From NCBI GenBank assembly GCA_029555925.1, contig JAKPQU010000341.1, forward strand, positions 1 through 25,259: a stretch of 25,259 nt of DNA, read 5' to 3'. Positions 2,362 through 25,259 of the stretch are shown piece after piece. Made by a program: the position numbers and the translations under genes. Origin of the DNA: Bacillota bacterium (GTDB lineage Bacteria; Eremiobacterota; SpSt-956; JAKJGF01). The notes under the pieces are model-generated. The model was given only the letters and a program-made list of their open reading frames with translations. It was not told the DNA's origin and did no database searches. How positions within the stretch are numbered: the first letter of the stretch is position 1; each line of letters opens with the position of its first letter.

Positions 2362-2374
2362 TTTTATCACCTCT

Positions 2375-2409: not shown

Positions 2410-2411
2410 GT

Positions 2412-2507: not shown

Positions 2508-2517
2508 ATACAGATCC

Positions 2518-4440: not shown

Positions 4441-4476
4441 TCTTCACACCCTTCACTATCTCACGTCTCCTCACTT
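4403..4476. repeat. Two-armed heptad element at the export/polymerase junction
   Basis: On the minus strand, a GTGA-type arm (4476-4442) holds the stop codon of the SLBB gene, followed by a short loop containing ATG at 4440, then an open arm (4430-4403) encoding the first residues of the polymerase. One element thus ends one gene and starts the next. Confidence 0.8.
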
Positions 4477-5898: not shown

Positions 5899-5916
5899 TT
5901 TATCCTCCTTGGAATC

Positions 5917-5977
5917 GTGACGCGTAACGCGTAATGCGTATCTTTACTTTTCACGTCTTACGACTCACGACTCACTC
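5917..5977. repeat. Two-armed heptad element between kinase and export genes
   Basis: Three exact plus-strand units at 5917-5937 (GTGACGC, GTAACGC, GTAATGC) face about five units in the opposite orientation at 5943-5977. The stop codon of the kinase gene (5965-5967) is the TGA of one unit; the open arm ends about ten bases before the ribosome site of the export gene. Confidence 0.9.
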
Positions 5978-8289: not shown

Positions 8290-8386
8290 TGGTTACCTCC
8301 CTGTATTTGTAGGCTCTTCATATGTTATTATGAGGTCATTTGTTATATATATGGTAAATTTAGTTTATATCTACCTTGATCATAAC

Positions 8387-8415
8387 ATTATATAAAACTA
8401 GTATATCTTTGTCAA
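8387..8415 (-). promoter_or_regulatory. Consensus sigma-70 promoter for the export operon
   Basis: On the minus strand, TTGACA (8410-8415), 17 bases, TATAAT (8387-8392): both boxes perfect. The leader to the kinase gene would be about 90 bases. It stands back to back with the plus-strand promoter at 8422-8451; the two -35 boxes are six bases apart. Confidence 0.8.
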
Positions 8416-8421
8416 TATAAG

Positions 8422-8451
8422 TTGACTATTTACTTTTAAGTACTGTATATT
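8422..8451 (+). promoter_or_regulatory. Predicted promoter for the giant TPR gene
   Basis: TTGACT (8422-8427), 18 bases, TATATT (8446-8451). Transcription would begin at about 8458, the first base of a heptad array, so the transcript would start with GTGA units and reach the ribosome site at 8485. Confidence 0.6.
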
Positions 8452-8457
8452 ATGTTA

Positions 8458-8619
8458 GTGAGTTGTGAGTCGTGAAAAGTGATTGGAGGTAGAAATTTTG
8501 AGCATGCATGATAACAGTTCCGTATTACCCGTCACGCGTAATGCATCACGCATCACGCATTACGCGTCACGCGTCACGCGTCACGCGTCACGACTCATCC
8601 GTCACGCGTCACGATTCAC
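8458..8619. repeat. Two-armed heptad element around the start of the giant TPR gene
   Basis: Four exact units on the plus strand at 8458-8485 (GTGAGTT, GTGAGTC, GTGAAAA, GTGATTG) are followed by the ribosome site and start codon, then by about 13 units in the opposite orientation at 8524-8619, which are translated as part of the protein. Confidence 0.88.
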
Positions 8620-11600: not shown

Positions 11601-11899
11601 GTTACAATAAAATTTTAGATATTAATCCCAAGAACGAAGATGTCTGGTTTAACAGGGGAATTATTCTGGACAACCTTGGAAAAAGCGAAGATGCCCTTTC
11701 ATCATACGATAAAGTTCTGGAGATTGAGCCGTCAAATACGGATGCATTGCTCAACAAAGGAAAAGTTTTAGAAAAGGCCGGCAAATATGAAGAAGCTGTA
11801 GCATGTTATGATAAAATACTCTCTATAAACCCCGATGACAGCCAGGCAAAAAAGAGCAGGGAAGAAGCAATAAAACATACGAATAAGGCGCCGGAGTGA
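8498..11899 (+). CDS. Giant TPR-repeat lipoprotein-like protein
   Basis: About 1,133 residues. After a basic N-terminus and a hydrophobic segment (FTIIFLLSILLLNSSC) come roughly 30 near-identical 34-residue TPRs of the AWYGKG ... YEEAI-CYDKAIEINP type, interrupted by a Lys/Pro/Ser linker (QIPDKPSPSPSPAED) near residue 940. TPR arrays bind proteins or act as scaffolds; the partner is unknown. The Cys suggests a lipoprotein signal, but the lipobox (NSSC) is weak. Start: ribosome site GGAGGT at 8485-8490 is seven bases before TTG 8498, better than ATG 8504; a longer frame from TTG 8483 would overlap the ribosome site. Residues before the hydrophobic segment are translated heptads (NASRITHYASR and so on). 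The stop codon is also a heptad core. Confidence 0.85.
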   Translation: MSMHDNSSVLPVTRNASRITHYASRVTRHASRLIRHASRFTIIFLLSILLLNSSCNESAKFHKEADELYIKGKYKEALELYDRALEINSKDGEVWFDKGESLFGLDRYEEAVACYDRALELKPEEGRIWYGKGEALRRKGKYYEAITCYDKAVEIDPLAGSAWYGRGEALNSLGNYEEAIKSCDKAIEINYRNFDAWYCKATASDKLGNYRESVRCYDRALEIKPDDLNSWYGKGQALNNLGDYENSIICYDRAIEINPKDIKSWYQKGRALAFQGKVQKAMKCADKAIEIDPKDVRAWYSKGLILVILKKYSEALACWDKGLEIDPKDKDTWKIMGWAMEKLNKYGEAIKCYDKVIEIDGNDLMAWHSKALALNHGKKYGEALACWDKSVEIDKNDVYGWYNRGVTLGNLNRTADAIFSYDKAIELNPYYTDAWLDKGNILYKQEKYDEALLCYDKVLDIEPDEKGEACAGKGNVLYKEEKYDEALLCYDNAIKINPKNAASWNGKGDVLYKKKYYKEALKCYNKVLDMDSTCDTAWVRKGNILFLDKKYNDSFRSYNIALELNPRNNQAWLGKGILLYNQKKYDDAFTCFDRAVACNGKDGVAWMNRGRILYDRKKYKESLASYSKAVECDSNSTEALTGQGDVCSAMKKYDDALFCYGKAVDMDPLCKEGWRGRGDVYFIEKKYDEALSCYDKVIQLAPSDSSAWLGRGNILYDRKKYDDALKSYNKALEGNPLSEEAASAKASLLKQLGRYEEALKAYDKAIELDRNNPSLWFERALILGLQEKYKEALRSYDRFLELRPLSKTGWTKKAGVLRELDRNDEALYCYNKAIGLDKNNPDLWNSKGLVLIKSGKYADAISAYDRVLELKPDDLSACYYRGLALLKTGKYEESISAFDRVLKVQPQNKDALANKELAMKEMKKQKEVAKATQIPDKPSPSPSPAEDLFTKGISLNKEGKYEEAIKCYDMVLEKDPKNKEVLFNKGLSLGNLRKHEEALLCYDKILAIDPSSIKTLFKKGTTLVNLGKNEDALLCYNKILDINPKNEDVWFNRGIILDNLGKSEDALSSYDKVLEIEPSNTDALLNKGKVLEKAGKYEEAVACYDKILSINPDDSQAKKSREEAIKHTNKAPE

Positions 11900-11971
11900 A
11901 GGGGCGTAATGCGTAACGCGTGATGCGTGATGGGAATTCTCAAGACTCACTACTCACTACTTACTCCTCAC
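11896..11971. repeat. Two-armed heptad element between convergent genes
   Basis: The plus-strand arm 11896-11933 (GTGAAGG, then GTAATGC, GTAACGC, GTGATGC, GTGATGG) contains the stop of the giant TPR gene. The opposite arm 11944-11971 (four exact units) contains the last codons and stop of the converging gene. I see no separate GC-rich terminator with a T-run here. Confidence 0.9.
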
Positions 11972-13306
11972 CATTCTGAACCCTATATCAATGCTCTTAC
12001 TTATGGGAAGATTGCCCCTGTATCCGGAGCGGCATTTGCCGGCATTTTCCAGGAACCCCCCTCCTTTTATTATACAGGTGGCTTCAGACGGGAAACAGCA
12101 TGTGCACCATTCCCATACATTGCCGCTCATATCATAAAGTTCAGATCTGTTTGGTTTTTTTTCTCCCACTGTGTGGGGCATAAGATGGGAATTATCGTAA
12201 TACCAGCAGTAACTGTCATCCATGCTGTTTCCCCAGTAATAATCCGTATCTGTTCCCGCTCTGCAGGCATATTCCCATTCCGCTTCTGTAGGAAGGCGGT
12301 AGCCGTTGTTTTTTATATTTATAAGTGTATAATCACCGGACGGATTTTTTTTATCATAACACAGTGCGAAACCTTCTTTCTGGCTCAGCCAGTTACAGTA
12401 ATCTGTAGCTTCCGACCATGTTATATTCACAACCGGCAGATTATCATCGGGATTTTCTTTGTTCTGATTATATTTGCAGAACTCTTTATTTGTCACTTCA
12501 TATTTACATATGTAAAAACTGCCTACTGAAACAGATTTATTGTTATTCTGACTGTCTGTGTCAATATTCAATTCAACTGTGCCGGCGGGAAGTAAAACCA
12601 TTTCAGGGACAATATAACCTTCTTTTTTCAGGAATGTTAATGTTTCTGCTTTTTTGTTTTTTACATTGTTATAATCAGGGTTTAATTCTGACACCCTGTC
12701 AAAACATGCCAGTGCCTCATCATATCGATTAAGGAATTTTAAGGCACATCCTCTGTTATACCATGCATCGATATGGTTTTTATCTGCTTCTGTGATCTTA
12801 TCATAATATTCAATCGCTTCTTCATATTTCTCCTGAATATATAGATAATTTGCTCTGTTAAACCATTCTTCTATGGTTTTTGTATCTCTGATTTCCATAA
12901 GAGATATTATGTTTTCTTTTTTCTTTTTTGCATCGCCATCATCAGGATTCAGTGTTAAAACCCTGTTAAAACATTCAAGTGCTTCTTCATATTTTTTTAC
13001 CTGTATCAAAGTACAACCTTTCCCGTACCATGCGTTACTGTAGTCCTGGCTGACTTCCAGTGCCTTATCATAACAGAGCAATGCTTTTTCATAGTTCCCG
13101 AGTTTATACAAAGCATTTCCTTTGTTATTCCAGACCTTGAAAGCCTTGGGATCATCATTCAGAACCTTGTTAAAACATTCCACCGCTTCTTTATACTGCC
13201 CTTTTTTATAAAGCTCCAGTCCTTTAGTATTCCAGTTCGTTTCTTCCGATAAAACAGGAAGCACTAACGCCAGTGCAATTGCTATCAGTATGATAAGTTT
13301 TTTCAT
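11957..13306 (-). CDS. TPR protein with formylglycine-generating-enzyme-like domain
   Basis: A 449-residue protein with a clear signal peptide (MKKLIILIAIALALVLPVLSE). Residues about 25-210 hold about five TPRs. Residues about 213-449 are an FGE/SUMF1-type domain: MVLLPAGTVEL, VTNKEFCKY, PVVNITWSEATDYCNWLS, YRLPTEAEWEYACRAG, YDMSGNVWEWC, KGGGFLENAGKCRSGYRG, IGFRMVRS. In true sulfatase-activating FGEs two Cys in the stretch after the GGS follow each other five residues apart; here the second is kept (GKC) but the first is Glu, so classical oxygen-dependent FGE activity is doubtful. The fold is also used for binding. Ribosome site GGAGAT before the ATG. The last residues VRSK come from a heptad array. 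Confidence 0.85.
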   Translation of the reverse strand: MKKLIILIAIALALVLPVLSEETNWNTKGLELYKKGQYKEAVECFNKVLNDDPKAFKVWNNKGNALYKLGNYEKALLCYDKALEVSQDYSNAWYGKGCTLIQVKKYEEALECFNRVLTLNPDDGDAKKKKENIISLMEIRDTKTIEEWFNRANYLYIQEKYEEAIEYYDKITEADKNHIDAWYNRGCALKFLNRYDEALACFDRVSELNPDYNNVKNKKAETLTFLKKEGYIVPEMVLLPAGTVELNIDTDSQNNNKSVSVGSFYICKYEVTNKEFCKYNQNKENPDDNLPVVNITWSEATDYCNWLSQKEGFALCYDKKNPSGDYTLINIKNNGYRLPTEAEWEYACRAGTDTDYYWGNSMDDSYCWYYDNSHLMPHTVGEKKPNRSELYDMSGNVWEWCTCCFPSEATCIIKGGGFLENAGKCRSGYRGNLPISKSIDIGFRMVRSK

Positions 13307-13330
13307 TGTTTCATCTCCGTTTCTTTAGTA

Positions 13331-13489
13331 GTGAGTCGTGAGTCGTGAAAATGCCCATTAGGAATGAAAATTTATTAATTGTCTCTTTCCTCGCGTCACG
13401 CGTTACGCGTTACGCGTCACGATTAATATATTTGAGACATTTATTTAACTGCCATTCCTTACTCATCATGCATTACCAGTCACGCCCCT
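13331..13489. repeat. Heptad arrays between the FGE-like and J-domain genes
   Basis: Three exact units at 13331-13351 (GTGAGTC twice, GTGAAAA) are followed by TGCCCATTA at 13352-13360, then AT-rich spacer, then four exact opposite units at 13394-13421, and a looser group at about 13456-13489 that reaches the stop of the J-domain gene. Confidence 0.85.
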
Positions 13490-15866
13490 ACAACTTGCTG
13501 TCTTCTCCGCCATCCTCAAGCTTAATATCATCATAACTCGCTTTCGCTTCTGCAGGTTCCACTGCTTTTGTCTCTTTTACTGCAGACGGTATATTTTCTT
13601 TATAATCCACGGTTTTAATATAATTATCTTCCCGGGTTTTTTCGTAATTGTAAGCTATTTCTTTATTGTTTTCTTCTTTAGAAGCAATCTGAATATTCTT
13701 ATTCTTCTCATCAGTCATAGATGCAATATAATGTCTGGCCTGCTTTTCTGCTTCTCCTCCCGTGTTGAGTCCTATAACTTTATTAAAATATTTTTTCCCT
13801 TCTTTACGATTCTTTTTATCTAAATAATTTATACCAATATGGAGATAACATCCGGCAAGTTCTTTCCTGGCAGAAAGATTATTTTTCTTTATGTTCAATG
13901 CCTCAAGGAAATATTTTTCTCCTTCTCTGTATTTTTTATCTGCTGTCATAAGACGGCCCTGGTTTAACAGAGAGTCAAAAAGTATGGTATTAACAGATTT
14001 TTTTTCTCCTTCTGTAAGGTTTAATGCGAGAGCTTTTTCAGACCAGGTGATTGAAGATTTATAGCCCTTCTGTCTGTAATAAGCCAGAGCTATATTCATG
14101 GAAGACTCTCTGTCAGAAGGCTGCAGGGAAAGGATTTTTTTGTTTGTTTCAATGGCGTTCTCATAATTACCGATCCCGAGATATGCTCCTGCTGCAATCC
14201 TGAGAGCTTTTATATCAGACGGCTCTTTTTTTAGAGCATGTTCTACACAATCCAGTGAATTTTTATAATCTTTATTTCGTAAGAAGATTTCACCCAGTTC
14301 AATACATTTATCCGATTTTATTATATTCAATTTCAGAAGTTTATGAAATTCCTTCCGGGCCGAACTGTAATCTTTACAGATTATGTAACTGTTAAGAAAT
14401 TTTAAGTGTTTTTCTGTTTCCGTTAGGGGATTACCGGAGATAGGTAATTCTTTCTCTGAGAGATTTATTCTGACTGCACCGGATCTTTTCCCATGTTCTG
14501 CTTCTTTATCTGACATGCTATAAATGAATATCGATAGTATTACAATAAAAATGCCGCTGACCATTATGGGTCTGAGTCTCATTTGCGACAGGTAACGGGT
14601 GACGCGTAACAGAATGGCCTGATAATTACATAAGATATGACGTAATATTAACAGCCGGTAGCACCTGGCTTTTTTTTCAATAAGCAGAAATTTTTCTTTT
14701 GAAATATCCTTTGTGGCCGAATAAAGTTTTTTAGATTTTTCTCCCGCATCGGCCAGGGTTTTGGTTACGGATTTTAAATTTTTTTCTGTGGCGGATTTGC
14801 CGTCTTTAAGTAATTTTCTTGATTTTTCTCCTGCTTTTGATAATTTTTCTTTCATGTAGATTAAATTTTTTTTTGAGTAATTTTTACTGTCTTTATATAA
14901 TTTTTTTATATTTTTTCCATATTTTTTAACAGAATTCCCTGTATAAGTGACATTATTTTTTACAAAGGTTTTGATGTCATTCCATTTGTTTTCTGAAAAG
15001 TGATGAATATGCTCCATTATGCTTATTCTGTCACAATGTTCTTCTTCCCATTCTTCTACCATTGGATGGCGGGGATCCAGCTTTTTTGCTTTTTTGAAAT
15101 AATCTGTGCTTTTTTCTTTATCTCCTGTCTCATTATAAAGATAGCAGATATACATGCAGAGTTCCGGTCTGTCAGGGGCTATTTCTCTGGCTTTAAGGAA
15201 ATATTTCAGAGCCTCGTCGGTCTTTTTTTCCCTCCATAATACGTGGGCTATATTTTCCATATAAAGATATTCGTAAGGTGCCATTTGAGCCGCTTTTTTA
15301 TGATAATACAGAGCTTTATCAAAATCTCTGTGCCTGAAACAGCATATGCCGAGCATGTTAAGTGCTTCATGGTTTTCGCCGTTTATTTTTATAGTTTTTT
15401 CAAAAAATATCTGTCCTTTACCGAAATGTTCCTGATTTATATAACAGAGTCCCATTAGGAAATTTGCTTTTTCTATGTGAGGATCAATATTTAATATCTT
15501 TTCCAGTTCTGATCTTGCACGGTCATAATCTTTTCTTTCAAATAAATAACTGACTTCTCTGAAGAGTTTGCTTATAAGAACAGAATCGGCATGGTGTGAG
15601 GAAAAAAAATCTCTGTCATAGATTTTTCTTTTCAGTGGATTACTTAAAACTTCATAGGCTTCATTTAATTCTTTTAACTTTTCTTCTGCAAGCCGGTGGG
15701 ACGGATGATCTTTGAATTTATCGGGATGATATTCAAAAATCAATTTTTTATATGACTGCTTGATTTCTTCCTGCCTGGCCTTATGACTTACACCGAGAAT
15801 TGAGTAATAATTTTTTATACTCATAGTAATATCCCTGTATGTATAGTTAGTTTCATAACTATCCAT
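13488..15866 (-). CDS. J-domain TPR membrane protein
   Basis: A 792-residue protein. Residues about 18-85 are a DnaJ domain with the HPD motif at 47-49, which stimulates Hsp70 (DnaK). TPRs follow (about 105-265), then a Lys-rich helical stretch with [18 protein letters not shown] repeats (about 300-395), one membrane segment ([19 protein letters not shown], about 431-449), then more TPRs (about 475-720) and an acidic tail. This predicts a cytoplasmic J-domain and an outside TPR domain. ATG 15866 has GAGGT eight bases upstream; ATG 15824 ([11 protein letters not shown]) is the alternative. Four heptad units are translated just before the membrane segment ([10 protein letters not shown]). Specific role unknown. 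Confidence 0.85.
14585..14612. repeat. Heptad array inside the J-domain gene
   Basis: Three exact units (GTAACGG, GTGACGC, GTAACAG on the plus strand, 14592-14612) plus a degenerate one at 14585-14591. The gene reads the open strand through it. Confidence 0.88.
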
Positions 15867-15879
15867 AAATAATGACCTC

Positions 15880-15949
15880 GTAATGCGTAAAGCGTAATGC
15901 GTGATGTGCAGGGATTAAACCCGTCACGCGTCACGCGTTACGCGTCACG
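15880..15949. repeat. Two-armed heptad element
   Basis: Four exact units at 15880-15907 (GTAATGC, GTAAAGC, GTAATGC, GTGATGT), a 14-base loop, and four exact opposite units at 15922-15949 (CGTCACG twice, CGTTACG, CGTCACG). Confidence 0.92.
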
Positions 15950-16071
15950 ACGACTTAAATTCTAATAAGTTATGAAATACACTATAATTGATTGGTAATG
16001 CGTCACCCGTCACGGGAGGGTATGGTATAGTATGGAATAATAATAACACAGAGTATGTGAAATTGCAAATC

Positions 16072-16158
16072 GTGAGACGTGAGACGTGAGTCGTGAGTCG
16101 TGAGTCGTGAAAAGTGAATTTGCCAATTACGCGTCACGCGTTACGCGTCACGCGTCAC
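16072..16158. repeat. Best-preserved two-armed heptad element
   Basis: Seven exact units at 16072-16120 (GTGAGAC twice, GTGAGTC three times, GTGAAAA, GTGAATT), a short centre TGCCAATTA (16121-16129), and five opposite units with TYAC cores exactly seven bases apart (127, 134, 141, 148, 155 past 16000). Confidence 0.95.
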
Positions 16159-16216
16159 GATTATAATGCATTGCATATACTATAATTTATATGTTAAATT
16201 CTTACAAAATATATAC

Positions 16217-16300: not shown

Positions 16301-17836
16301 TTGAGTAATGTCAGAATAACAGGAGAAGCCGGTAGTGTTATTATAAGCCGGCCCTGTAAAAATGTTTTAAGAGAGAATCTTTTATTTAAGAGAAGTCTTT
16401 TAGATAGATCGATTTTTAAGAAAAACTGGCCTTTTCTATTCAGTGTTTTTCTTGTATTTACCGATCTTTTTTATTTGAATCTATCTTTCTATACAGCATT
16501 TTACCTTCGTTTCCCGGGCTATGACGGACTTCATAATTATTTTTATCCCTGGATTCTTGCCAATATTCTTTTTATTCCAGGTTCTGTCTGCTTCGGGCTT
16601 TATAGAGGAATCTTCAAGGCATCACTTGAAAAACAGAAATCTCAAATAGGGCGACTTACTTTTTATACAGGTATTTTTCTTATGTCCTATCTTTATATTA
16701 CAAAATCCGCTTATTGTTCCAGGTCTGTAATACTTATTTTTCTTATGTCCATGTATGTCATACTGGAACTCAATCATTCTATTCTGTTCAAGATTAATCG
16801 TTTTCTGGTAAAAAGGGGACTGGGAAGCAAAAAAACTCTTATAATTGGGACAGACGATTCTGCCAGCAGATTTGCCGAACAGCTTAAAGATATATACGGA
16901 GATTTCTATAAAGTAGTGGGTTTTGTGAAAAATAACCATTTGAAAGACGCTCCTGATATAGAACAGGATATTATAGGTATGTTTAAAGAGGTTAATCCGC
17001 TTATAATCTCAATGAATATAGAACAGGTTTTTATAGTCAGTGATTCTATGGATATATCAAAATATGTGAGTGTAAGACGGGCCTGTGAAAAGCATCATGT
17101 TAATCTGAAAATGGTATCTCCTCATATAAGGAGTCTGATGAAAAAGAGAAAGATAAAAGATGTAACAGGGGTGCCTCTTATTACAGATGAAGGAAGAACG
17201 AGATATCTTTTTGTTCAAAGATTGTGCAAGCGTTTACTCGACCTGTCAATCCTTGCCCTGGGCAGTATTGTCATTGTTCCTGTATGTCTTGTTACTGCGG
17301 CACTTATAAAATTAACCTCTAAAGGGCCGGTGTTTTTCAAACAGAAAAGAGCTCTTTATAAAGGCGGGCCGGAATTTGATGTTTATAAATTCCGCTCTAT
17401 GTGTGTCGATGCAGATAATATGAAAAAGGATTTATTGAAAGAAAATGAAACAAACGGCGCGTTGTTTAAAATGAAAAATGACCCCCGTATAACACCTGTG
17501 GGACATATTATAAGAAAATTAAGTCTTGATGAATTTCCTCAGTTTATAAATGTTCTTAAAGGAGAAATGTCAGTAGTAGGTCCCCGTCCTCTTCCTGTAA
17601 ATGATTATAAGATGATAAAAAATACAGATAAACTCTGTTTCGACTGGTATAAAAAGAGAGGACAGGCTGTACCCGGCATTACCGGCTTATGGCAGATTTC
17701 CGGCAGAAGTGAGTTATCCTTCGAAGAAATGTGTCTTTTAGACCTTTATTATATAGAAAACCAGTCAGTATTTTTTGACCTTGAAATCATGTTTGATACT
17801 GCATGCGTAATGGTAATGGGTGCCGGAGCGTATTGA
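16301..17836 (+). CDS. Polyprenyl-phosphate sugar-1-phosphate transferase (WbaP-like)
   Basis: A 511-residue initiating glycosyltransferase that loads the first sugar phosphate onto undecaprenyl phosphate in the inner membrane. Residues about 45-170 hold four to five membrane segments, about 175-290 a nucleotide-binding-like middle domain (KKTLIIGTDDSASRFAEQL), and about 305-511 the catalytic domain: a membrane helix after KRLLDLSILA, then KGPVFFKQKR, FDVYKFRSM (about 363), the Asp-Glu pair in SLDEFPQ (about 408), GEMSVVGPRP and GITGLWQISGRSE. All family hallmarks are present. The start is a TTG; the nearest ATG (16308) is out of frame and closes at once. GAAAGG lies 13 bases upstream, so initiation looks weak. 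The sugar cannot be predicted. Confidence 0.93.
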   Translation: MSNVRITGEAGSVIISRPCKNVLRENLLFKRSLLDRSIFKKNWPFLFSVFLVFTDLFYLNLSFYTAFYLRFPGYDGLHNYFYPWILANILFIPGSVCFGLYRGIFKASLEKQKSQIGRLTFYTGIFLMSYLYITKSAYCSRSVILIFLMSMYVILELNHSILFKINRFLVKRGLGSKKTLIIGTDDSASRFAEQLKDIYGDFYKVVGFVKNNHLKDAPDIEQDIIGMFKEVNPLIISMNIEQVFIVSDSMDISKYVSVRRACEKHHVNLKMVSPHIRSLMKKRKIKDVTGVPLITDEGRTRYLFVQRLCKRLLDLSILALGSIVIVPVCLVTAALIKLTSKGPVFFKQKRALYKGGPEFDVYKFRSMCVDADNMKKDLLKENETNGALFKMKNDPRITPVGHIIRKLSLDEFPQFINVLKGEMSVVGPRPLPVNDYKMIKNTDKLCFDWYKKRGQAVPGITGLWQISGRSELSFEEMCLLDLYYIENQSVFFDLEIMFDTACVMVMGAGAY

Positions 17837-17840: not shown

Positions 17841-17880
17841 GTGACGCGTGGGGTTCAAACATTCACTTTTCACTTTTCAC
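17841..17880. repeat. Two-armed heptad element between convergent genes
   Basis: GTGACGC at 17841 follows the sugar-transferase stop by a few bases; on the other side three TTTCACT-type units (to 17880) encode the last residues and stop of the ABC exporter. The entire 26-base gap between two convergent genes is this element. Confidence 0.85.
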
Positions 17881-19623
17881 TTCTTTTTCCTGCAGATTTA
17901 AATAATGCTGAAACTCCACATTATTCCTTACCAGCCCTTCAAATGTTCCTGTATCAATCTTTTCCGGGCTCGTAAAGAAGTATATTAAATCTACCTTCTG
18001 CATAGTGGAAAGTCTGTGGGATACGATTATTACTGTGCTGTCTTTGAGGAATTCTTTTATATGATTGATTATTTTGTTTTCCGTCTCTGCATCGACAGAG
18101 GAAAGGCCTTCGTCAAGTATAAGGATTGATGGTTTTCTTATGACCGCTCTTGCAATGGATATTCTCTGCCTCTGTCCTTCCGATATTTTACAGGCATTTT
18201 CTCCTATAACGGTTTTATATCCTTCCGGCAGTGATTCTATAAATTCATCTGCACAGGCCACTACGGCCGCTTCTTTTATTTCTTCTTCAGTAGCATTATG
18301 TTTTCCGTATTTTATATTGTTCTCTATGGTATCGTTCCAGAGAAAAGAATTTTGCAGGGCTACGCCGGTGTTTTCATAAAAAGAGTTTTTCTCCAGAGCC
18401 TTTATGTCATGCCCGTCCAGTAAAATTTCACCCTCTGTCGGCCTGTAGAGTTTCAGCAGGAGATTTATAATGGTTGTTTTCCCGCATCCTGAAGGTCCTG
18501 CAAGACCTGCAAAGGTTCCTCCTTCTATTTTAAATGACAGATCTTTCAGCACTGTCTTTTCATCACTGTAATTGAATGACACCTGTTTGAATTCTACCGT
18601 ACCTTTTGAATTTTTCAGCTTTATCAGAGATTTGCTCTCTTTCTCATCGGTTTCTTCTTTCAGTATTGTATCAAGCCTGTCACAGGAGATAAAAGACATG
18701 GAAACCTGCTGGCTTAATCCGGAAAAAGAGCCCTGAATGCTTGAAAGCTTATTTATGTAAATTCCTATTGCTATAAGGCTTCCCAGCGGTATCTCTCCTT
18801 TTATTACCTGATAGCTTCCGTACGCAAGTATAAGGCCCAGAAATATTTTTGAGAATATGCTCTGGATATTCGAAACGATTGAATGATATTTTTGAAGTTT
18901 CAGGTTGAAACGTATATTTTCTATAAGGGCTTTTATATATTTTCGTCTTTCGTCTCTTTCTTTCCCGAAAGCTTTTATCAGGTGCATATGAGTCAGTATG
19001 TCATGGAGTAATATAAAAACTTTCTGGCTTATTTCTATAGATTTTTCCCATTTTTTCTCCATTTTTTTATTAAAATAATTCGTCATATAGTATAGAAATG
19101 GCATGAGAATTACGGAACATGCAGCCATTTTCCAGTTCAGGATAAATATTATAACCATGACGGTGGCGGTTTTGAATACAAGTTGTATTAGCTGGGGAAG
19201 AACATCTGCTATCAGAGAGGAAACTATTTCTATATCATAATTGAACCGGTAGAGATTTTGGGAACTGGAACTGTCCTGAAAGTATTTCAGAGGAAGCTTC
19301 TTAAGTTTACTGAAAACCTTTACTGTCAGGTTGAATTTTATCTTTGTCCTAATGGTTATTTTCAGATAAACTGTGAGAGCAGACAGGAAATTATTAAGGA
19401 GAAACAGTATTCCTCCTGCCACAAGAAGAATTCCGAACAGCTTCAGATCTTTATTCCCATAGGCTTTATCTATAACGAGTTTTGTAAGGTATGGATTTAC
19501 AAGACCAAGATACATAGTAATGATATTTAAAAAAAGTATAAAAGCCTCTTTTTTCCAGAAAGGGAGTAAATATCTGTGATAGTTGAAATGTTTTGGGAGG
19601 GTGAGAAATTGAGTTACTTTCAT
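17863..19623 (-). CDS. ABC exporter (fused permease and ATPase)
   Basis: A 586-residue half-transporter. Residues about 25-310 carry six membrane segments of the type I exporter fold. Residues about 340-575 are the ATPase: Walker A AGPSGCGKTT (about 374), Q-loop ALQNSFLW, signature SEGQRQR (about 484; S-E-G-Q replaces the textbook S-G-G-Q), Walker B ILILDEG (about 503), D-loop SSVD, H-loop IVSHRLS. There is no N-terminal C39 peptidase domain, so leader removal must come from another protein; the S26 protease upstream is the obvious candidate. The ATG overlaps the stop of the preceding PqqD-like gene by four bases. It is the last gene of the peptide operon and most likely exports the modified peptide. 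Its C-terminal VKSEK-stop is heptad-derived. Confidence 0.93.
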   Translation of the reverse strand: MKVTQFLTLPKHFNYHRYLLPFWKKEAFILFLNIITMYLGLVNPYLTKLVIDKAYGNKDLKLFGILLVAGGILFLLNNFLSALTVYLKITIRTKIKFNLTVKVFSKLKKLPLKYFQDSSSSQNLYRFNYDIEIVSSLIADVLPQLIQLVFKTATVMVIIFILNWKMAACSVILMPFLYYMTNYFNKKMEKKWEKSIEISQKVFILLHDILTHMHLIKAFGKERDERRKYIKALIENIRFNLKLQKYHSIVSNIQSIFSKIFLGLILAYGSYQVIKGEIPLGSLIAIGIYINKLSSIQGSFSGLSQQVSMSFISCDRLDTILKEETDEKESKSLIKLKNSKGTVEFKQVSFNYSDEKTVLKDLSFKIEGGTFAGLAGPSGCGKTTIINLLLKLYRPTEGEILLDGHDIKALEKNSFYENTGVALQNSFLWNDTIENNIKYGKHNATEEEIKEAAVVACADEFIESLPEGYKTVIGENACKISEGQRQRISIARAVIRKPSILILDEGLSSVDAETENKIINHIKEFLKDSTVIIVSHRLSTMQKVDLIYFFTSPEKIDTGTFEGLVRNNVEFQHYLNLQEKEVKSEK

Positions 19624-19961
19624 GATTTTATAGAACTGTGCCAGAAGCCCTCGTCCCTTTGTGGGCTGGTGGCATTGACTATTATATGTCTTTTAAGCAG
19701 TTTCTCTGTAAAAGAGATAACATCTTTATCTATTTCTTCCTGACTTATGTCGTCTCCTTCAATTTCAGAGAAGAGTTTTTCGGAGATTTCTTTTAAGGTC
19801 TTCGTGCCGTCTATATGTTCGAGAATGAATTGTCCCGTTTCGTTTAAAATGAAAATTTCATCTTCTAAATTGCCGCTCCATGAGTCCATGATGAAAACAA
19901 CTGTTTCGTCATGGACGGTTTTTATTGCTATTGAGTTTGATTTTTTGTAAATGTTATTCAT
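19620..19961 (-). CDS. PqqD-like peptide chaperone (second copy)
   Basis: About 113 residues from ATG 19961 (MNNIYKKSN). The pattern VVHDETVVFIMD-like N-terminus, then FILNETGQFILEHIDGTKTLKEISEKL and a helical C-terminus match the PqqD winged-helix family, which binds precursor leader peptides and presents them to radical SAM or other enzymes. A GTG at 20000, three bases behind the protease stop, would add 13 residues (LPITRHLSRS) that are translated heptads; neither start has a good ribosome site, so coupling to the protease gene is plausible. It overlaps the ABC exporter by four bases. Confidence 0.85.
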   Translation of the reverse strand: MNNIYKKSNSIAIKTVHDETVVFIMDSWSGNLEDEIFILNETGQFILEHIDGTKTLKEISEKLFSEIEGDDISQEEIDKDVISFTEKLLKRHIIVNATSPQRDEGFWHSSIKS

Positions 19962-19969
19962 AATGGATC

Positions 19970-20014
19970 GTGACAGGTGACGCGTAATGGGCAGTTTCAC
20001 TTTTCACTCTTCAC
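19970..20014. repeat. Two-armed heptad element between protease and PqqD genes
   Basis: Units GTGACAG, GTGACGC and GTAATGG at 19970-19990, centre TAATGGGCA (19985-19993, the reverse complement of TGCCCATTA), and three TTTCACT-type units at about 19994-20014. The protease stop codon (20004-20006) is a unit core. Confidence 0.9.
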
Positions 20015-20633
20015 TTTTCTTAAACTTTTTCTCATCTACAAGCAATCTGAAAGGCCTTTTTATATGCCATCTCTCCCTGCCGGGAAGTAGTCTTCCTATT
20101 ACAAGACCACCTAAAAGAAGCTGAAGTTCTTTCTTATTTTCTTTTTTTATTGATATCATACGTAAAAGACCCCATTTTTGTAAGATGGAGTACGTAATAT
20201 TTTTTTCCGAAAGCCACAGATAAAGGGGCCGGAAGATTTCAATGAAATAGGATTTTATCTTTTTCAGGATATGGAGTATATTTCCTTTAATATAACCTTC
20301 TGTACTTCCTGAGACCTTTCTTTTTACACCGTTTCTTTCTGCTTCTATTACTTTTCCTGTAATATCTTCAGGCATAAGAAACCATGAGTCAGGAAGGTTA
20401 TTGTTGTCACCTCTTGTTTTTATTCCTTTACTGTCAACTGAAATGACCCTGTGTGTTATGTTTTTTTCTTCTCCTTTTGCTCTGAAAACTATGACATCTC
20501 CCGTTTTTATTTCTTTACAGTCACGTTGAATGTATAGGAGATCTCCGGGAGTGAACGTAGGTACCATGCTCTGTCCCATGTAATACATGGTATTCGGCGG
20601 AAGTATTTTTTTATTATTTATTTCATTACTCAT
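20004..20633 (-). CDS. S26-family peptidase of the Ser-His (SipW/Sec11) type
   Basis: About 209 residues from ATG 20633. GQSMVPT holds the nucleophile Ser22; GDVIVFR and ITHRVI follow, with His61 where bacterial signal peptidase I has its catalytic Lys; RGDNN gives the conserved Asp76. This is the archaeal/ER-type Ser-His arrangement. Unlike SipW or Sec11, no N-terminal membrane helix precedes Ser22, so the protease domain is probably cytoplasmic or loosely attached; the C-terminal 130 residues are basic and of unknown fold. Its place between a precursor gene and a PqqD gene suggests processing of the precursor. A longer start (20681) would include heptad sequence. No ribosome site is visible; a heptad array lies where one would be. 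The C-terminal KKSEE-stop is heptad-derived. Confidence 0.82.
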   Translation of the reverse strand: MSNEINNKKILPPNTMYYMGQSMVPTFTPGDLLYIQRDCKEIKTGDVIVFRAKGEEKNITHRVISVDSKGIKTRGDNNNLPDSWFLMPEDITGKVIEAERNGVKRKVSGSTEGYIKGNILHILKKIKSYFIEIFRPLYLWLSEKNITYSILQKWGLLRMISIKKENKKELQLLLGGLVIGRLLPGRERWHIKRPFRLLVDEKKFKKSEE

Positions 20634-20640
20634 TGTAATC

Positions 20641-20711
20641 GTAACGCGTGACAGGCAGAACATACTCTGCTTACCATTCACCAGTCACTACTCACCTTTT
20701 ATTATTTTCAC
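20641..20711. repeat. Two-armed heptad element upstream of the protease gene
   Basis: GTAACGC and GTGACAG at 20641-20654, a loop, then TYAC cores at 20671, 20678, 20685 and 20692, exactly seven apart, with another at 20708. Confidence 0.85.
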
Positions 20712-20752
20712 CTTTACCATATCTCTGTTATTTCAATGAAAACATGGTAAAG
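20712..20752 (-). terminator. Possible attenuator hairpin behind the first-named precursor gene
   Basis: CTTTACCAT (20712-20720) and ATGGTAAAG (20744-20752) are perfect 9-base inverted copies with a 23-base loop, starting nine bases beyond the precursor stop. No T-run follows in the gene direction, so a processing or stabilising hairpin is as likely as a terminator. Confidence 0.45.
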
Positions 20753-20760
20753 TTTTTATG

Positions 20761-21018
20761 TCATTCTACAACATAGAGATAGCCATTTAATTGAAGACCT
20801 TCATTGCAGCTTATAACAGAATCAAGTTTTGAGCTAAAACCTTCTTTATTACTCTTTCTAAATGTTCCTGTATTGCATGCTGCCGGTGGAGTATTTCCTG
20901 ATTTACAGGCGCCATGTTCGTTAGGAGATGCGCCGGGACTGCAGATAACTCCGATACATAGAAGATCATCTTCCAATTTTATATGGAAAAGTGCCGGTTT
21001 TTCATATTTCTTTTTCAT
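20761..21018 (-). CDS. Putative RiPP precursor peptide, short form
   Basis: 85 residues. The N-terminal block KKYEKP ... DDLLCIGVICSPG is shared with the longer peptide at 21962-22276, as is the C-terminal block DSVISCNEGLQLNGYLYVVE. Between them lie modules starting C-x-x-G: Cys26, Cys38, Cys48 (spacing 12 then 10). Cys21 and Cys71 lie in the shared blocks. A KYxKP-type start followed by an acidic-hydrophobic stretch is common among leaders of radical-SAM-modified peptides; the assignment rests on that, on the Cys modules and on the operon. It has the strongest ribosome site of the operon (AAGGAGAT), in keeping with a need for many copies. The modification, the cleavage site and the activity are unknown. 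Confidence 0.72.
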   Translation of the reverse strand: MKKKYEKPALFHIKLEDDLLCIGVICSPGASPNEHGACKSGNTPPAACNTGTFRKSNKEGFSSKLDSVISCNEGLQLNGYLYVVE

Positions 21019-21090
21019 TTTATATCTCCTTAATATTTTGATGTTATAAGTTTATAGTTAATTGTGAATAATATCCTGCTTTTTCACTTT

Positions 21091-21960
21091 TTATATATTA
21101 TTCCAAAAAGCTCCACCGGCAGAAACTCTGAGTCTGTAGCATGGAATTTTTACTGCAAGTTCCCAGGCTGTTTCAAAGAGAGTCTGTTTTTTTTGTATCA
21201 TTTCCTCTTTTTTCATACCTTCCACTGTATATACCTGTAAAGACAGATAAAAGATTTTCATTGCACCTTCCCGGGTATTTACAGGAATAACCTCATCTTT
21301 TTCCGATTTTTCGAGGAAAAATAATTTTTTTAAAGGTACGTATTCAGCAGTATTCCAGGATGATCCCGGTTGATTTTCTCTTACTCTGCTCCAGGTCGGA
21401 AGAGGGTGGGCCGGGTAAAATCCTTCTCCCTCTTTGACGATTAACGTAAGATCATCGCACATTACTTCCCATGGGAAATTTAATCTGCTGCAGCATGTGC
21501 TCTTACCAGATGTGCTTTTCCCTGCAAGTATAAAGCCACTGCCTTCTTTCTTTATAAGAGCGCCATGTATTGGAAGTCCTCCTGCTGATATTATATAATC
21601 GAAAACAGGAACGAGTAAAAACATCATTTTTGCATATCTGTCTCCCGTGCCGTATCCGTAATGAAAAATCGATATGTTACTGTACGGGTGAGTGAGAAAA
21701 TAGGACGAATATATCCTCCGCACGTTCCATCCTTTCACCGGCAGGATTACACCTGTTTCTCCGCACTTTAACAGTATATCGTCGGTTCTCTGGCTTCTCC
21801 CGTCATCTCTGTAGAGGATAATTTTATGGCTGTGTTCTCTGTTACATACGGTAAGGCCCATAATGAATGAAAATTCTTCGAGCCATTCGTTTGTTTTTTC
21901 CTCGGATAGTAAGAGCCATCCTCTGTTAGCAAAATGAATACATGACGACAGATATTTCAT
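21091..21960 (-). CDS. HprK-like P-loop kinase
   Basis: 289 residues. The centre reads GLPIHGALI, then GFILAGKSTSGKST (Walker A near residue 147), followed by EVMCDDLTLI near 168, the Asp-Asp site of the HPr kinase/phosphorylase fold, then YPAHPLPTW. It lacks the N-terminal domain of true HprK. Relatives of this kind accompany PqqD proteins and peptide-modification genes (for example the kinases of paeninodin-type lasso peptide clusters, and the families labelled HprK-related kinase). The start codon lies one base after the stop of the long precursor, so translation is tightly coupled. It may phosphorylate the peptide or a protein partner; which residue is unknown. Confidence 0.8.
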   Translation of the reverse strand: MKYLSSCIHFANRGWLLLSEEKTNEWLEEFSFIMGLTVCNREHSHKIILYRDDGRSQRTDDILLKCGETGVILPVKGWNVRRIYSSYFLTHPYSNISIFHYGYGTGDRYAKMMFLLVPVFDYIISAGGLPIHGALIKKEGSGFILAGKSTSGKSTCCSRLNFPWEVMCDDLTLIVKEGEGFYPAHPLPTWSRVRENQPGSSWNTAEYVPLKKLFFLEKSEKDEVIPVNTREGAMKIFYLSLQVYTVEGMKKEEMIQKKQTLFETAWELAVKIPCYRLRVSAGGAFWNNI

Positions 21961-21961
21961 A

Positions 21962-22276
21962 TCATTCTTCTATATACAGATAACCGTCTAACTGCATTCC
22001 GTCATTACAGCTTATAACGGAGTCGGTAATTGAACCGGTGTCTGCGGTACGTATCCTCTGGTTACCCGTTATACAGAGACGTCTTGCATGGCTGCCGGGT
22101 GTGCATCCACGACTGGCACTGCTCCCCTGCAGGCAGGAAAGTGATGCATTATTGCCTGTCCTGCAGGAACCGGTATTATTCGCATTGATGCCGGGACTGC
22201 ATATAAAACCCATACATAAAAGTTCTTCTTTCCCTGCCATAGGAATTATTACAGGTTTTTCATATTTTTTTAACAT
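21962..22276 (-). CDS. Putative RiPP precursor peptide, long form
   Basis: 104 residues, paralogue of the 85-residue peptide. Shared blocks: KKYEKP ... EELLCMGFICSPG and DSVISCNDGMQLDGYLYIEE. The middle has five modules beginning C-x-x-G: CSPG at 26, CRTG at 38, CLQG at 48, CTPG at 58 and CITG at 68, that is 12 residues then exactly 10, 10 and 10. The first three Cys positions coincide with those of the short form; two extra modules account for the length difference. The module residues between are otherwise quite different, while the flanks are conserved, as expected for leader, core and follower. The ribosome site is weak. It follows 145 bases of AT-rich sequence. Confidence 0.75.
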   Translation of the reverse strand: MLKKYEKPVIIPMAGKEELLCMGFICSPGINANNTGSCRTGNNASLSCLQGSSASRGCTPGSHARRLCITGNQRIRTADTGSITDSVISCNDGMQLDGYLYIEE

Positions 22277-22421
22277 ATTCTTTTCAATTCAATTAAATTT
22301 TAATAAATTGTACCATACACTGTATTTTTTATAATCTCTATATTATTAGAAAATTATTGTTTACCTTCTTGAAAAATAAAAAAATTACACCTTGATTTTT
22401 ATATTATATATTTTTATTTTT
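22277..22421. other. AT-rich gap upstream of the long precursor gene
   Basis: 145 bases, very AT-rich and free of heptad arrays. On the minus strand a TACAAT box occurs about 35 bases before the precursor start, but no good -35 partner is visible, so a promoter is possible but unproven. No GC-rich hairpin was seen. Confidence 0.4.
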
Positions 22422-23594
22422 TTAAATTTTTTTTCGTAATTCTGTAAATCTACGACTTTCCGGGAAAAGTCCTGTTTCTTTTGCCATCTCACAGTACCAG
22501 GACGATGACCAGAAATTTTTAGTCTGGTAGTAATTCTGGGCAATACAGGAACCGAGGCACATGGCTTTCATCAAACAATCTTTGCAGATACCTTCCAGTT
22601 TTTGTGGCAGTCCTTCTCTTATTTCATTCAGGAGTCTATTATTTTCCCATACGTCACTGAGCCGGTTTTTATCTATATATCCGAATACAAGTTCCGGCAC
22701 TGTTTCTCCGATGCCGCAGAGGGCATAAGAACCATCTGCCAGGACTCCGATTATGCCGAATATACCGCATGTGCCGCATCCGTCTGCACCGTTACCGAAC
22801 AATTTACCGAGAGGTCTGAATGCATGGGGATGGCTGTAATGAATATGCAGATTTGTTTTTTCGGAAAGTTCGTTTTCAACCCATCTGCCAATCTTAACCA
22901 GTTCTTCTATAGAGAGAGATTCACCTTTTTTATGCATTTCTTCGCCTCTTCCCGTCGGCTGCATAAGGTTAAACTTTACTGACCCTGCTCCGAGAGATTC
23001 CGCAAGCTTCACTAAAGATTCAATTTGCTCTTTATTTTTTCGCATAATGGTCATGATAATCTGCGGGGAAATTCCTGCTCCGACCAGATTTTCTATGCCT
23101 TCTATGGCTCTGTCGAAAGAACCTTTTATGCCTCTGACCCATTCATGTGTTTCTCTGTCTATCCCGTCAATACTGACGGAAACAAAAGAATTTTTGCATT
23201 TCCTTATAAGTTGTGCCATTTCTTTCGTGCACAGGACTCCGTTTGTTTCTACTATGAGTGTAAGGTCTTCCTTCTGTATAATTTTGATTATATCCTTAAT
23301 TCTTCTGTGAAGAAGCGGTTCCCCTCCCGATAGCTTGACAGCTGAGAGTCCCAGTGGTTTTGCCTGTTTAATTACTGATTTAAAAAGCTCGAAATCCAGT
23401 TCAACATGAGCTGTTTCTCCTGCAGGTTCGATCCAGCAATGTCTGCACCGCAGATTACACCCTTTTGTGAGATAAAAATAAATTGTATCCAGAACCGGTG
23501 TTTTATTTTTTTCTGCCGCTTCAGAGATTTTTTCTGTAATTATTTTATTTTCCATGTCTTTACAATATCTTTCTACTGACCTGAGCATAAGCAT
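22422..23594 (-). CDS. Radical SAM/SPASM peptide maturase
   Basis: 390 residues. The radical SAM cluster motif C46-x3-C50-x2-C53 (KGCNLRCRHC) is followed by KLSGGEPLLH, ETNGVL, VSVSIDG and a TIM-barrel core. The C-terminal SPASM region has Cys in GCGTCG, ALCG, CKDC, MCLGSC and YCEMA, enough for two extra iron-sulfur clusters. Members of this group modify ribosomal peptides, commonly forming thioether or carbon-carbon links. It is directly upstream of the long precursor. A GGGAGGAAA ribosome site lies rather far (13 bases) before ATG 23594; ATG 23555 (MENKIITEK) is an alternative. There is no clear N-terminal PqqD-like (RRE) domain, so the separate PqqD proteins may supply that role. Confidence 0.9.
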   Translation of the reverse strand: MLMLRSVERYCKDMENKIITEKISEAAEKNKTPVLDTIYFYLTKGCNLRCRHCWIEPAGETAHVELDFELFKSVIKQAKPLGLSAVKLSGGEPLLHRRIKDIIKIIQKEDLTLIVETNGVLCTKEMAQLIRKCKNSFVSVSIDGIDRETHEWVRGIKGSFDRAIEGIENLVGAGISPQIIMTIMRKNKEQIESLVKLAESLGAGSVKFNLMQPTGRGEEMHKKGESLSIEELVKIGRWVENELSEKTNLHIHYSHPHAFRPLGKLFGNGADGCGTCGIFGIIGVLADGSYALCGIGETVPELVFGYIDKNRLSDVWENNRLLNEIREGLPQKLEGICKDCLMKAMCLGSCIAQNYYQTKNFWSSSWYCEMAKETGLFPESRRFTELRKKI

Positions 23595-23613
23595 GTAATA
23601 AAGGTTTTCCTCC

Positions 23614-23627
23614 CGTCACGCGTCACG
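23614..23627. repeat. Short heptad array between the two radical SAM genes
   Basis: Two exact CGTCACG units, about 33 bases behind the stop of the upstream radical SAM gene and in stop orientation for it. It is a single-armed copy. Confidence 0.8.
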
Positions 23628-23660
23628 ACTATAACCGTCGGAATGTACACGGATTTCGCC

Positions 23661-24758
23661 TCAGGAAAATGGTAATTTTCCTCCTTCTTCTAGAAATCTT
23701 TTTATACATACGTCAGGGCTCGGGTGTTCATCATTGCCGAAGATAGTATATGCAAGGGCGGGACAGCTTCCTGTACAGTAGTTTATATATTCGCATCCGG
23801 CACAGTACTCAAATTGTTTCAACGGTATCTCACATCTGTTCCTGAATTTATTCAATGCCGGATGATTCTGCCATATGTCGACAAGTATGTCTTTATTTAT
23901 CCTGCCCAGTTCAATTCCGGGTATCTGGGCACATGGAACAATTATTCCGTCCGCTCTCACTGCCAGTCTACTCATCGGCCCGCTACATCCTGTAAGATAA
24001 CCTCTTCCGGGCATGGGACCTTTCTTTTCCTGTCTGTTTTTTTCCATTTCAAGCCACATTCTACCTTCTGCAAGTGGGCCTGCTGTGGCACTTATGCGGC
24101 CTCTGTATTTACCCTCCAGTAAAAGAAGTTGTTCCATGGCAAGTGTTCTTTCTTCGGTAGAAAGCATTATTTCATCCGTATATTGTCTGCAGAGTCCCAT
24201 ATAGGAGGCAGCGTTGGTGGAAATTGACGGAATTCCTATATCTTCAAGGAGTAATTTTGCTATATTCTCCAGGTCATGAACATTTTTTTTATGGATTGTT
24301 ACTCTTACAGTAGTTGATACATTATGCTTCTGTAAATTTTTTATGCCTTCTACGGCCCGTTTAAAGTTGCCTTCTCCTCGAAAAGAGTCATGTGTTATAT
24401 GGATTGAGCCGTCTATAGATACCTGGACATAATTGCATCTTTTTGTAGAGTAAAGAAATGCTGCCCATTCTTCCGTAATAAGCGTGCCGTTACTCAGGAT
24501 GCTGAATCTCATGCGGTTTTTTATTATGCCGTCTATGAGTTCTTTCAGATCCTTTCTGCAGAAAGGTTCACCGCCTGAAATACACAGTTCTAATACTGCA
24601 CAATCATTTAATTCTTTAAAGAATTTCAGCCATTCTTCTGTTCGGAGTTCATGACCCGTGTCGCCTTCACCTGTAAAATGAAAACAATATTTACAGCGGA
24701 GGTTGCATTTATTGGTGATAGAAAGGTCTACGGACCTGGGGCTATTCATTACTTTCAT
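23661..24758 (-). CDS. Radical SAM/SPASM protein, second enzyme
   Basis: 365 residues. Cluster motif C18-x3-C22-x2-C25 (NKCNLRCKYC), then CISGGEPFC, SILSNGTL, VQVSIDGS, and a SPASM tail (CSGP, PCAQIPG, CAGCEYINYCTGSCP, CIKRF). It is only distantly similar to the enzyme at 22422-23594, so the pair probably perform different steps or form an enzyme and partner, as in two-protein systems described for other PqqD-linked clusters. ATG 24758 is followed by another in-frame ATG three codons later. No strong ribosome site is visible; a heptad element lies 20-60 bases upstream. Confidence 0.9.
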   Translation of the reverse strand: MKVMNSPRSVDLSITNKCNLRCKYCFHFTGEGDTGHELRTEEWLKFFKELNDCAVLELCISGGEPFCRKDLKELIDGIIKNRMRFSILSNGTLITEEWAAFLYSTKRCNYVQVSIDGSIHITHDSFRGEGNFKRAVEGIKNLQKHNVSTTVRVTIHKKNVHDLENIAKLLLEDIGIPSISTNAASYMGLCRQYTDEIMLSTEERTLAMEQLLLLEGKYRGRISATAGPLAEGRMWLEMEKNRQEKKGPMPGRGYLTGCSGPMSRLAVRADGIIVPCAQIPGIELGRINKDILVDIWQNHPALNKFRNRCEIPLKQFEYCAGCEYINYCTGSCPALAYTIFGNDEHPSPDVCIKRFLEEGGKLPFS

Positions 24759-24776
24759 TTATTTTCTCATTTTGTA

Positions 24777-24817
24777 GTGAAAAGTGAATGGATGCTTTCA
24801 CCCGTCATGCGTCACGA
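24777..24817. repeat. Two-armed heptad element behind the first PqqD gene
   Basis: GTGAAAA and GTGAATG at 24777-24790, then opposite units with cores at 24798, 24805 (TCAT, one change) and 24812. The PqqD-like stop codon (24798-24800) is a unit core. Confidence 0.88.
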
Positions 24818-25085
24818 CTTCATATCCTGCAAGTCCTCTTTTTACAATTTCTTCAATAAATTCATTGCAGTGTGCTTCCACGTCATCGGGGACTTCTTCA
24901 CATTCTTTTTTCAGTGCTTCCACTATGTCTTTTACTGTGTTTTTACCGTCAAGTTTTCTCCAGATAAATACCCCAACAGGGTTTACGGTAAAACCGTCTC
25001 CTGTATCAGGGTCAAAAAGAATACCCCAGTCATCGAATTCTACTCTGAGGACTATTAAAGGGTTGGCTACCGGTTTATCGTTCAT
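24798..25085 (-). CDS. PqqD-like peptide chaperone (first copy)
   Basis: 95 residues, the usual PqqD length. DDWGILFDPDTGDGFTVNPVGVFIWRKLDGKNTVKDIVEAL is summarised by its key points: a short strand pair, then N-P-V-G-x-x-I-W-x-x-L-D-G and a helical C-terminus, the signature of PqqD relatives that act with radical SAM/SPASM enzymes. It starts the operon and is followed closely by the radical SAM gene at 23661-24758. AAGGAT lies a few bases before the ATG. The last residues (VVTHDG-stop) come from heptad units. It differs strongly from the copy at 19620, so each may serve a different enzyme. Confidence 0.87.
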   Translation of the reverse strand: MNDKPVANPLIVLRVEFDDWGILFDPDTGDGFTVNPVGVFIWRKLDGKNTVKDIVEALKKECEEVPDDVEAHCNEFIEEIVKRGLAGYEVVTHDG

Positions 25086-25195: not shown

Positions 25196-25259
25196 TTCTA
25201 TAGTATTAGAAATTAACCAGTGGTTAATTTATTGTCTGCAAAACAAATTAAATAAGGCA
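25196..25259. repeat. 64-bp terminal direct repeat, right copy
   Basis: Identical to 1-64. It may reflect a circular molecule or a contig that begins and ends in two copies of one dispersed repeat. Confidence 0.95.

Follow-up and report, generated by a model that had tools for sequence, protein, structure and literature searches.

A SynChlorMet-type gene cassette with two CxxG-repeat peptides as a candidate peptide-modification pathway in an Eremiobacterota contig

Gene organization of the cassette

The window analyzed here is the whole 25,259-nucleotide stretch of contig JAKPQU010000341.1 (assembly GCA_029555925.1, Bacillota bacterium, placed in Eremiobacterota by GTDB). Nine genes on its minus strand, all at 17863-25085, form a cassette of the type that NCBIfam catalogues as SynChlorMet and that is predicted to direct the synthesis of a ribosomally synthesized and post-translationally modified peptide (RiPP). 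All nine open reading frames (ORFs) named in an original prediction from the sequence are present. In order along the minus strand, the run begins with ScmD (24798-25085), a PqqD-like protein and presumed RiPP recognition element (RRE; TIGR04248, 127.3 bits against a cut-off of 100; PF05402, 7e-16), and continues with the radical S-adenosylmethionine (SAM)/SPASM maturase ScmE (23661-24758; TIGR04250, 611.4 bits, cut-off 400) and a second radical SAM/SPASM maturase, ScmF (22422-23594; TIGR04251, 577.5 bits, cut-off 400). Precursor peptide 1 (21962-22276, 104 residues) is followed by ScmC (21091-21960; TIGR04249, 203.7 bits, cut-off 125), a protein of predicted HprK/PEPCK fold and presumed kinase, and by precursor peptide 2 (20761-21018, 85 residues). 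The last three genes encode an S26 Ser-His-Asp peptidase with a C-terminal extension (20004-20633, with the ORF reaching GTG 20681; TIGR02228, 79.4 bits, cut-off 51.85), a second PqqD-like protein (19620-19961, with the ORF reaching GTG 20000; PF05402, 2.5e-11), for which no NCBIfam cut-off is passed, and an ATP-binding cassette (ABC) exporter with a membrane domain and an ATPase but no peptidase domain (17863-19623; PF00664, 1.1e-36; PF00005, 4.9e-31). The family assignments made originally are upheld by these matches: PF05402 for both small proteins, Radical_SAM and SPASM for both maturases, an archaeal-type signal peptidase and an ABC exporter.

The two tightly coupled junctions described previously are also seen. 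Precursor 1 and ScmC are separated by a single base (21961), and the second PqqD-like gene and the ABC gene overlap by 4 bases (19620-19623). The gap between the S26 and second PqqD-like genes is 3 bases only if the latter starts at GTG 20000, and the remaining junctions have gaps of 39, 66, 145, 72 and 79 bases. Translated intergenic repeat appears to account for the N-terminal 16 residues in the S26 ORF and 13 in the second PqqD-like ORF, and the predicted starts at ATG 20633 and ATG 19961, respectively, are the likelier ones. An intergenic repeat based on CACGCGTCACG has 33 matches when one mismatch is allowed (0.04 expected). It spans 207-16159 and recurs at 17840, 20640, 23617 and 24806, and at junctions within the cassette it seems to give rise to false N-terminal extensions.

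The claim that this gene set is not known elsewhere does not stand, because four enzymes encoded in one gene run (ScmD, ScmE, ScmF and ScmC) pass the curated SynChlorMet cut-offs. NCBIfam also holds a precursor model for this cassette, ScmA. Furthermore, ScmD, ScmE, ScmF, ScmC, S26, the ABC protein and a precursor occur together in 16 of the 30 compared loci of at least 12 kb. As far as the searches show, the SynChlorMet cassette is a catalogued type with an orphan product. Systems of this kind were reportedly described by Haft and Basu in 2011. The open-access literature searched, a scope outside which most subscription journals fall, contains no mention of "SynChlorMet" or of TIGR04248-TIGR04252, and a term search of one paper (PMC3023750) returned nothing on SynChlorMet-type systems. 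In the accessible parts of two others (PMC11117315, PMC12707348), the wording of RiPP, signal peptidase and S26 is used for other things.

A family of CxxG-repeat precursors

The two short ORFs of the cassette were originally taken to be true precursors, and this assignment is borne out by profile comparison. A profile built from 30 precursors of other genomes, with the window excluded, selects exactly these two among the 152 ORFs of the window (E = 1.9e-15 for precursor 1 and 2.6e-10 for precursor 2; next ORF, 0.46). Precursor 1 has the leader KKYEKPVIIP, six CxxG units and the C-terminal tail DSVISCNDGMQLDGYLYIEE. Precursor 2, which is 47% identical to precursor 1, has the leader KKYEKPALFH, four CxxG units and a C-terminal tail of the same kind, and its DNA contains the repeat families D15 and D20.

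Across 32 aligned precursors the Tyr residue is invariant, and the consensus leader is K-x-x-Y-E-x-P-x-L-x-x-L. The repeat unit, C-x-x-G-x-x-[A/P]-x-x-x, occurs 149 times in these 32 sequences, most commonly with a spacing of 10 (60 of 117 gaps). Position +6 is Ala or Pro in 103 of the 149 repeats (Ala in 75 and Pro in 28, or 3.9 and 3.8 times background). Some loci encode several precursors, with a maximum of four (L218), and both length and repeat number vary. As judged from these sequences, the CxxG-repeat precursors with a YxxP leader are a genuine family to which both window peptides belong.

Precursor 1 alone as a query retrieves 3 relatives at E 0.001, one of which is labelled Candidatus Eremiobacterota; because a single window precursor finds so few, a motif rule and a profile were used. 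The precursor profile finds 27 proteins among 5.8 billion, and the nine that bear names are all called hypothetical. Neither window precursor has an NCBIfam match at E 10 or better, the ScmA model TIGR04252 (cut-off 35 bits) included. Of the 20 precursors scanned with that model, namely the two from the window and 18 others, only that of L222 passes (64.7 bits). Since TIGR04252 is annotated as a SynChlorMet precursor, the kind of precursor is known in outline, and its breadth, repeat rule and near-universal presence go beyond the ScmA model.

Co-occurrence of precursors and Scm enzymes

ScmE is found at E ≤ 1e-120 in 17 of 395, 5 of 295, 6 of 294, 4 of 288 and 3 of 297 genomes of the phyla of five centres, for a total of 35 of 1,569 genomes with the five centres included. 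Together with the 3,440 proteins that match the window ScmE at E ≤ 1e-60, this result indicates that the cassette is widespread. When contigs were scanned with the ScmE alignment, five true ScmE loci were recovered among the best 80 matches listed (Deltaproteobacteria, Nitrospirae, Methanogenium, Victivallales and Aminicenantes records), the genomes of which served as the five centres, the rest of the matches being general radical-SAM motifs; the same scan of viral contigs gave none over 40% identity.

The window and 37 loci from the 35 genomes were compared, giving 38 loci. A strict precursor rule (YxxP, at least three CxxG, spacing of 6-16), set after inspection of these loci, is matched in 26 of the 38 (40 matches in 603,751 bp). 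It finds nothing in 75 other radical-SAM genome loci (1,241,952 bp) or in 190 dinucleotide shuffles, and its one match in 80 viral-contig control loci is a Gly-rich stretch that is not precursor-like. A looser rule is matched in 14 of 37 mostly short loci versus 5 matches in the 155 control loci, and it also picks up some spurious ORFs in GC-rich loci. Another pass of the precursor rule gave 27 of 38 loci, and a list compiled by eye with the looser rule gave 32 of 38, or 33 after the variant in L228 was later recognized. As these loci also served to set the rules, independent evidence comes only from the controls and from the held-out genomes.

At the genome level, the profile of 32 precursors was applied with a cut-off of E ≤ 0.01 per genome. 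Homologous loci, which according to the original prediction should carry precursors, appear to do so: a match is found in 34 of 35 ScmE-positive genomes versus 1 of 35 ScmE-negative ones, the latter defined as having no match at E ≤ 1e-120 and taken non-randomly as the first listed of 1,534. This comparison is partly circular for the 24 ScmE-positive genomes that contributed profile rows, and all 11 ScmE-positive genomes without profile rows were matched. The lone match among ScmE-negative genomes, in G018 (L270:9107-13717), lies with ScmF (447 bits), ScmE (264), ScmD (73), S26 (65) and a weak ScmC (33), and by these scores L270 is a divergent Scm-like cassette with a CxxG precursor.

In five genomes (G036, G162, G296, G1335 and G005), the Scm locus itself shows no precursor, and one lies elsewhere in the genome. 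That of G036 (L264:6313-10090) is found with ABC, S26 and ScmC genes and a 66-residue ScmF-like fragment, 326 kb from ScmD and ScmE, and one of the two distant precursors of G1335 (L268) is beside ScmC and ScmD. L264 adjoins genes that resemble ribosomal-operon genes. Additional precursor matches were seen in G320 next to ScmC, in G359 next to a second ScmF and in G047 next to an S26 protein.

The S26 gene tracks the precursor. Among loci of at least 12 kb, S26 is present in 21 of 24 with a precursor versus 1 of 6 without (Fisher p 0.002), and after L228 is moved to the precursor group, in 22 of 25 versus 0 of 5 (p 0.0004). In these counts, L001 is scored as lacking S26 despite a 61-bit S26 domain, and L211 is scored as lacking ScmC despite an S26-ScmC fusion; as L211 is shorter than 12 kb, the 12-kb counts are unaffected. 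Clustering of ORFs of at least 100 residues gave no non-cassette family in four or more loci, except for ORFs antisense to ScmD.

Maturases, presumed kinase and peptidase

Both maturases retain the expected cluster ligands. The CxxxCxxC motif and seven SPASM Cys residues are present in all 37 aligned ScmE sequences and in all 32 aligned ScmF sequences that score over a threshold chosen here. Among the matches listed (120 of 3,440), the closest relative of the window ScmE is 95% identical and is labelled Candidatus Eremiobacterota; with the like-named relative of precursor 1, this makes an origin of the window in that group probable. Among solved proteins, SkfB is the closest to ScmF in sequence (E 2.6e-18).

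ScmC was originally called an HprK-like kinase. Its score against the Pfam HprK model (12.9 bits) is below the cut-off of 33.3, yet ScmC passes TIGR04249 and the catalytic residues are present. A profile match to HprK (1ko7) has an E value of 9e-4, and the predicted structure has the PEPCK/HprK fold. The key residues are H132, G152-K153-S154 and D169-D170: H132, G152, K153 and D169 are found in 25 of 25 ScmC sequences, and D170 in 24. In the RiPP kinase BsfK, the precursors of which contain YxxPxL, the His, Gly-Lys-Ser and Asp-Asp residues are reported to be important in the part of the study available (PMC10368454). With BsfK positions taken from that source and counted manually, the spacing of the His, Lys and Asp residues in ScmC equals that of BsfK within one residue. 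ScmC thus shares with BsfK the His, the P-loop GK[ST], the Asp-Asp pair and the HprK fold, and is presumed to be a precursor kinase with the key catalytic residues of a characterized RiPP-precursor kinase.

The S26 protein is, by its sequence profile, a SEC11-like Ser-His-Asp protease (SEC11C, 7p2q; E 1e-14). Residues S38, H77, D92 and D98, numbered from GTG 20681, are present in 27 of 27 S26 sequences, and the C-terminal extension is conserved. The structure model has no fold match at E ≤ 0.001, and its top-ranked rows comprise SipA, a signal-peptidase homologue (3.0e-3), along with phage repressor/LexA domains and signal peptidases; because no fold match was significant, the family is assigned from sequence profiles. 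As assessed by hydropathy only, the best 19-residue mean is 0.68 in the window protein and at most 1.59 across the 27, relative to a membrane-anchor cut-off of 1.6 chosen by us. In L211:3201-4949, S26 and ScmC are naturally fused in a 582-residue protein (239.8 and 330.8 bits).

Proposed pathway and alternative explanations

The cassette is proposed to encode a RiPP pathway, a reading to which we assign a probability of roughly 0.62. In this pathway, ScmD, and perhaps also the second PqqD-like protein, would bind the YxxP leader of the precursors. ScmE and ScmF would then modify the core by radical chemistry, the likeliest outcome being sulfur-to-carbon links from the repeated Cys residues, and ScmC would phosphorylate Ser or Thr of the core. 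The leader would be removed by the S26 protease, probably in the cytosol, and the product exported by the ABC protein. YxxP is listed among characterized RRE recognition motifs in the available part of PMC12710340, and a PqqD-like B1 protein is described in that of PMC5067487 as binding a lasso leader tightly and handing it to the protease. Given the Cys array of the core and SkfB as the best solved relative of ScmF, Cys thioethers are the best guess for the links and are probable. The gene identities, the precursor family with its near-universal link to the cassette and the conserved catalytic residues are read directly from the sequences, while we infer the leader binding, link type, phosphate site, cleavage site, order of steps, export and role. 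The original interpretation is accordingly retained in part: the RiPP-type operon, enzymes, precursors, protease and exporter are supported by sequence, and the novelty of the set is not.

Several observations weigh against this proposal. Its chemistry is derived from sequence, and a C-C link, epimerization or oxidation by ScmE and ScmF would also be compatible with it. In the window precursors, an additional Cys precedes the first CxxG, and the small-residue stretch that many relatives have there is absent. ScmC has Thr (T150) in place of one Gly in the P-loop pattern of BsfK, its model has a mean predicted local distance difference test score of 70.5 and was built from five sequences, and Foldseek ranks PEPCK over HprK; the fold matches among the 50 VIA rows listed are all PEPCK, and the missing HprK there was not counted as evidence. 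The weakest match in the independent genomes, in G553, is at 1.9e-4, and the profile misses G722 although the precursor of that genome is itself a profile row. Neither ScmC nor S26 was found alongside the distant precursors of three of the five genomes (G162, G296 and G005). In addition, by the thresholds used, S26 is missing from 3 and ScmC from 5 of the precursor-bearing loci of at least 12 kb, some of which have weak divergent matches, so neither is always nearby. Finally, ABC proteins do not track precursors (19 of 25 versus 2 of 5, p 0.14).

Cys motifs resembling CxxG are found in metal sites. The arrays could accordingly be metal or cluster ligands, or the peptide could be a cofactor precursor, as for pyrroloquinoline quinone and mycofactocin, that the radical enzymes only trim or oxidize; among the families that score next for ScmE and ScmF are PqqE, NirJ, AhbC/AhbD and mycofactocin maturases in addition to peptide maturases. 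If the peptide were a fixed cofactor precursor, conservation would be expected, whereas the peptides are divergent and the enzymes conserved (3 relatives at E 0.001 versus 3,440 at 1e-60), which argues for a variable product, as do the several precursors of some loci and their differing length and repeat number. A cofactor or metal role is quite unlikely. That the whole association of precursor and cassette is an artefact of low-complexity Cys/Gly ORFs, as the loose-rule matches in control loci might suggest, has a negligible chance of being correct and was rejected on the strict-rule controls and the genome profile controls.

The two remaining alternatives concern single steps of the proposed pathway. 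ScmC may be a fold relative with a job other than that of a peptide kinase, in keeping with the Foldseek ranking and the weak sequence link to HprK; the near-invariance of its catalytic residues at the BsfK spacing makes this improbable, though worth keeping in mind. Similarly, the S26 protein could be an ordinary neighbouring signal peptidase, with leader removal, if any, falling to a different protease. In the searchable part of a review on RiPP leader proteases (PMC10885120), the terms "signal peptidase" and "S26" are absent, and the literature passages retrieved on such proteases describe no S26 leader protease. The tracking of the precursor by S26, the conserved C-terminal extension and the natural fusion to ScmC point the other way, and an unrelated neighbour is rather unlikely. 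Separately, a lasso peptide was considered and rejected, as Pfam detects neither a lasso cyclase nor a B2 protease domain among the nine proteins at E 0.1.

Relation to known systems

The closest known system is SynChlorMet itself (TIGR04248-TIGR04252: ScmD, ScmC, ScmE, ScmF, ScmA), to which the window corresponds in four enzymes and in the general kind of precursor. It differs in that its precursors, two in number with a common C-terminal tail, are missed by the ScmA model, in the presence of a second PqqD-like protein, and in an S26 and an ABC protein that have no Scm name among the matches listed. Kinase-bearing lasso clusters, as described in the available parts of PMC10368454 and PMC8498205 for bsf and paeninodin, share a YxxPxL leader (bsf), a separate PqqD-like RRE, an HprK-like kinase and an ABC exporter; in the window, by contrast, the cyclase is replaced by two SPASM radical enzymes and the B2 protease by S26, and the core is Cys-rich. 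Thuricin CD sactipeptides offer a precedent for a pair of radical SAM maturases that jointly modify a pair of precursors, making thioethers (PMC12093266, in the part available). Unlike thuricin CD, the window cassette, known from its genes alone, has ten-residue CxxGxx[A/P] units, a kinase and a SEC11-like protease.

More tentatively, SynChlorMet loci may represent a distinct, cross-domain RiPP class in which a two-enzyme complex makes one radical link per ten-residue CxxGxx[A/P] unit, an HprK-like protein phosphorylates the peptide, a SEC11-like protease removes the leader in the cytosol and the repeat number is freely varied to diversify the product. This broader proposal is possible but somewhat doubtful. 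With a general precursor signature and a linked pair of kinase and protease, what was an orphan annotation becomes a pathway that can be tested, one that might join radical crosslinks and phosphate on one peptide.

Surroundings of the cassette

The window begins and ends with the same 64 bases (1-64 and 25196-25259; family D18), a pattern seen in circular contigs or after closure by an assembler, and a Pfam scan detected no replication gene among eight neighbour proteins. Four exopolysaccharide-type genes (O-antigen ligase, SLBB export, Wzz/GNVR-AAA and sugar transferase) lie at 2518-8289 and 16301-17836; this context was not seen elsewhere in the search for families common to at least four loci. 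An ORF of 1138 residues at 8483-11899 has a 102-base repeat period with units that are TPR-like by eye, and a PemK/MazF-like toxin is encoded at 1796-2134.

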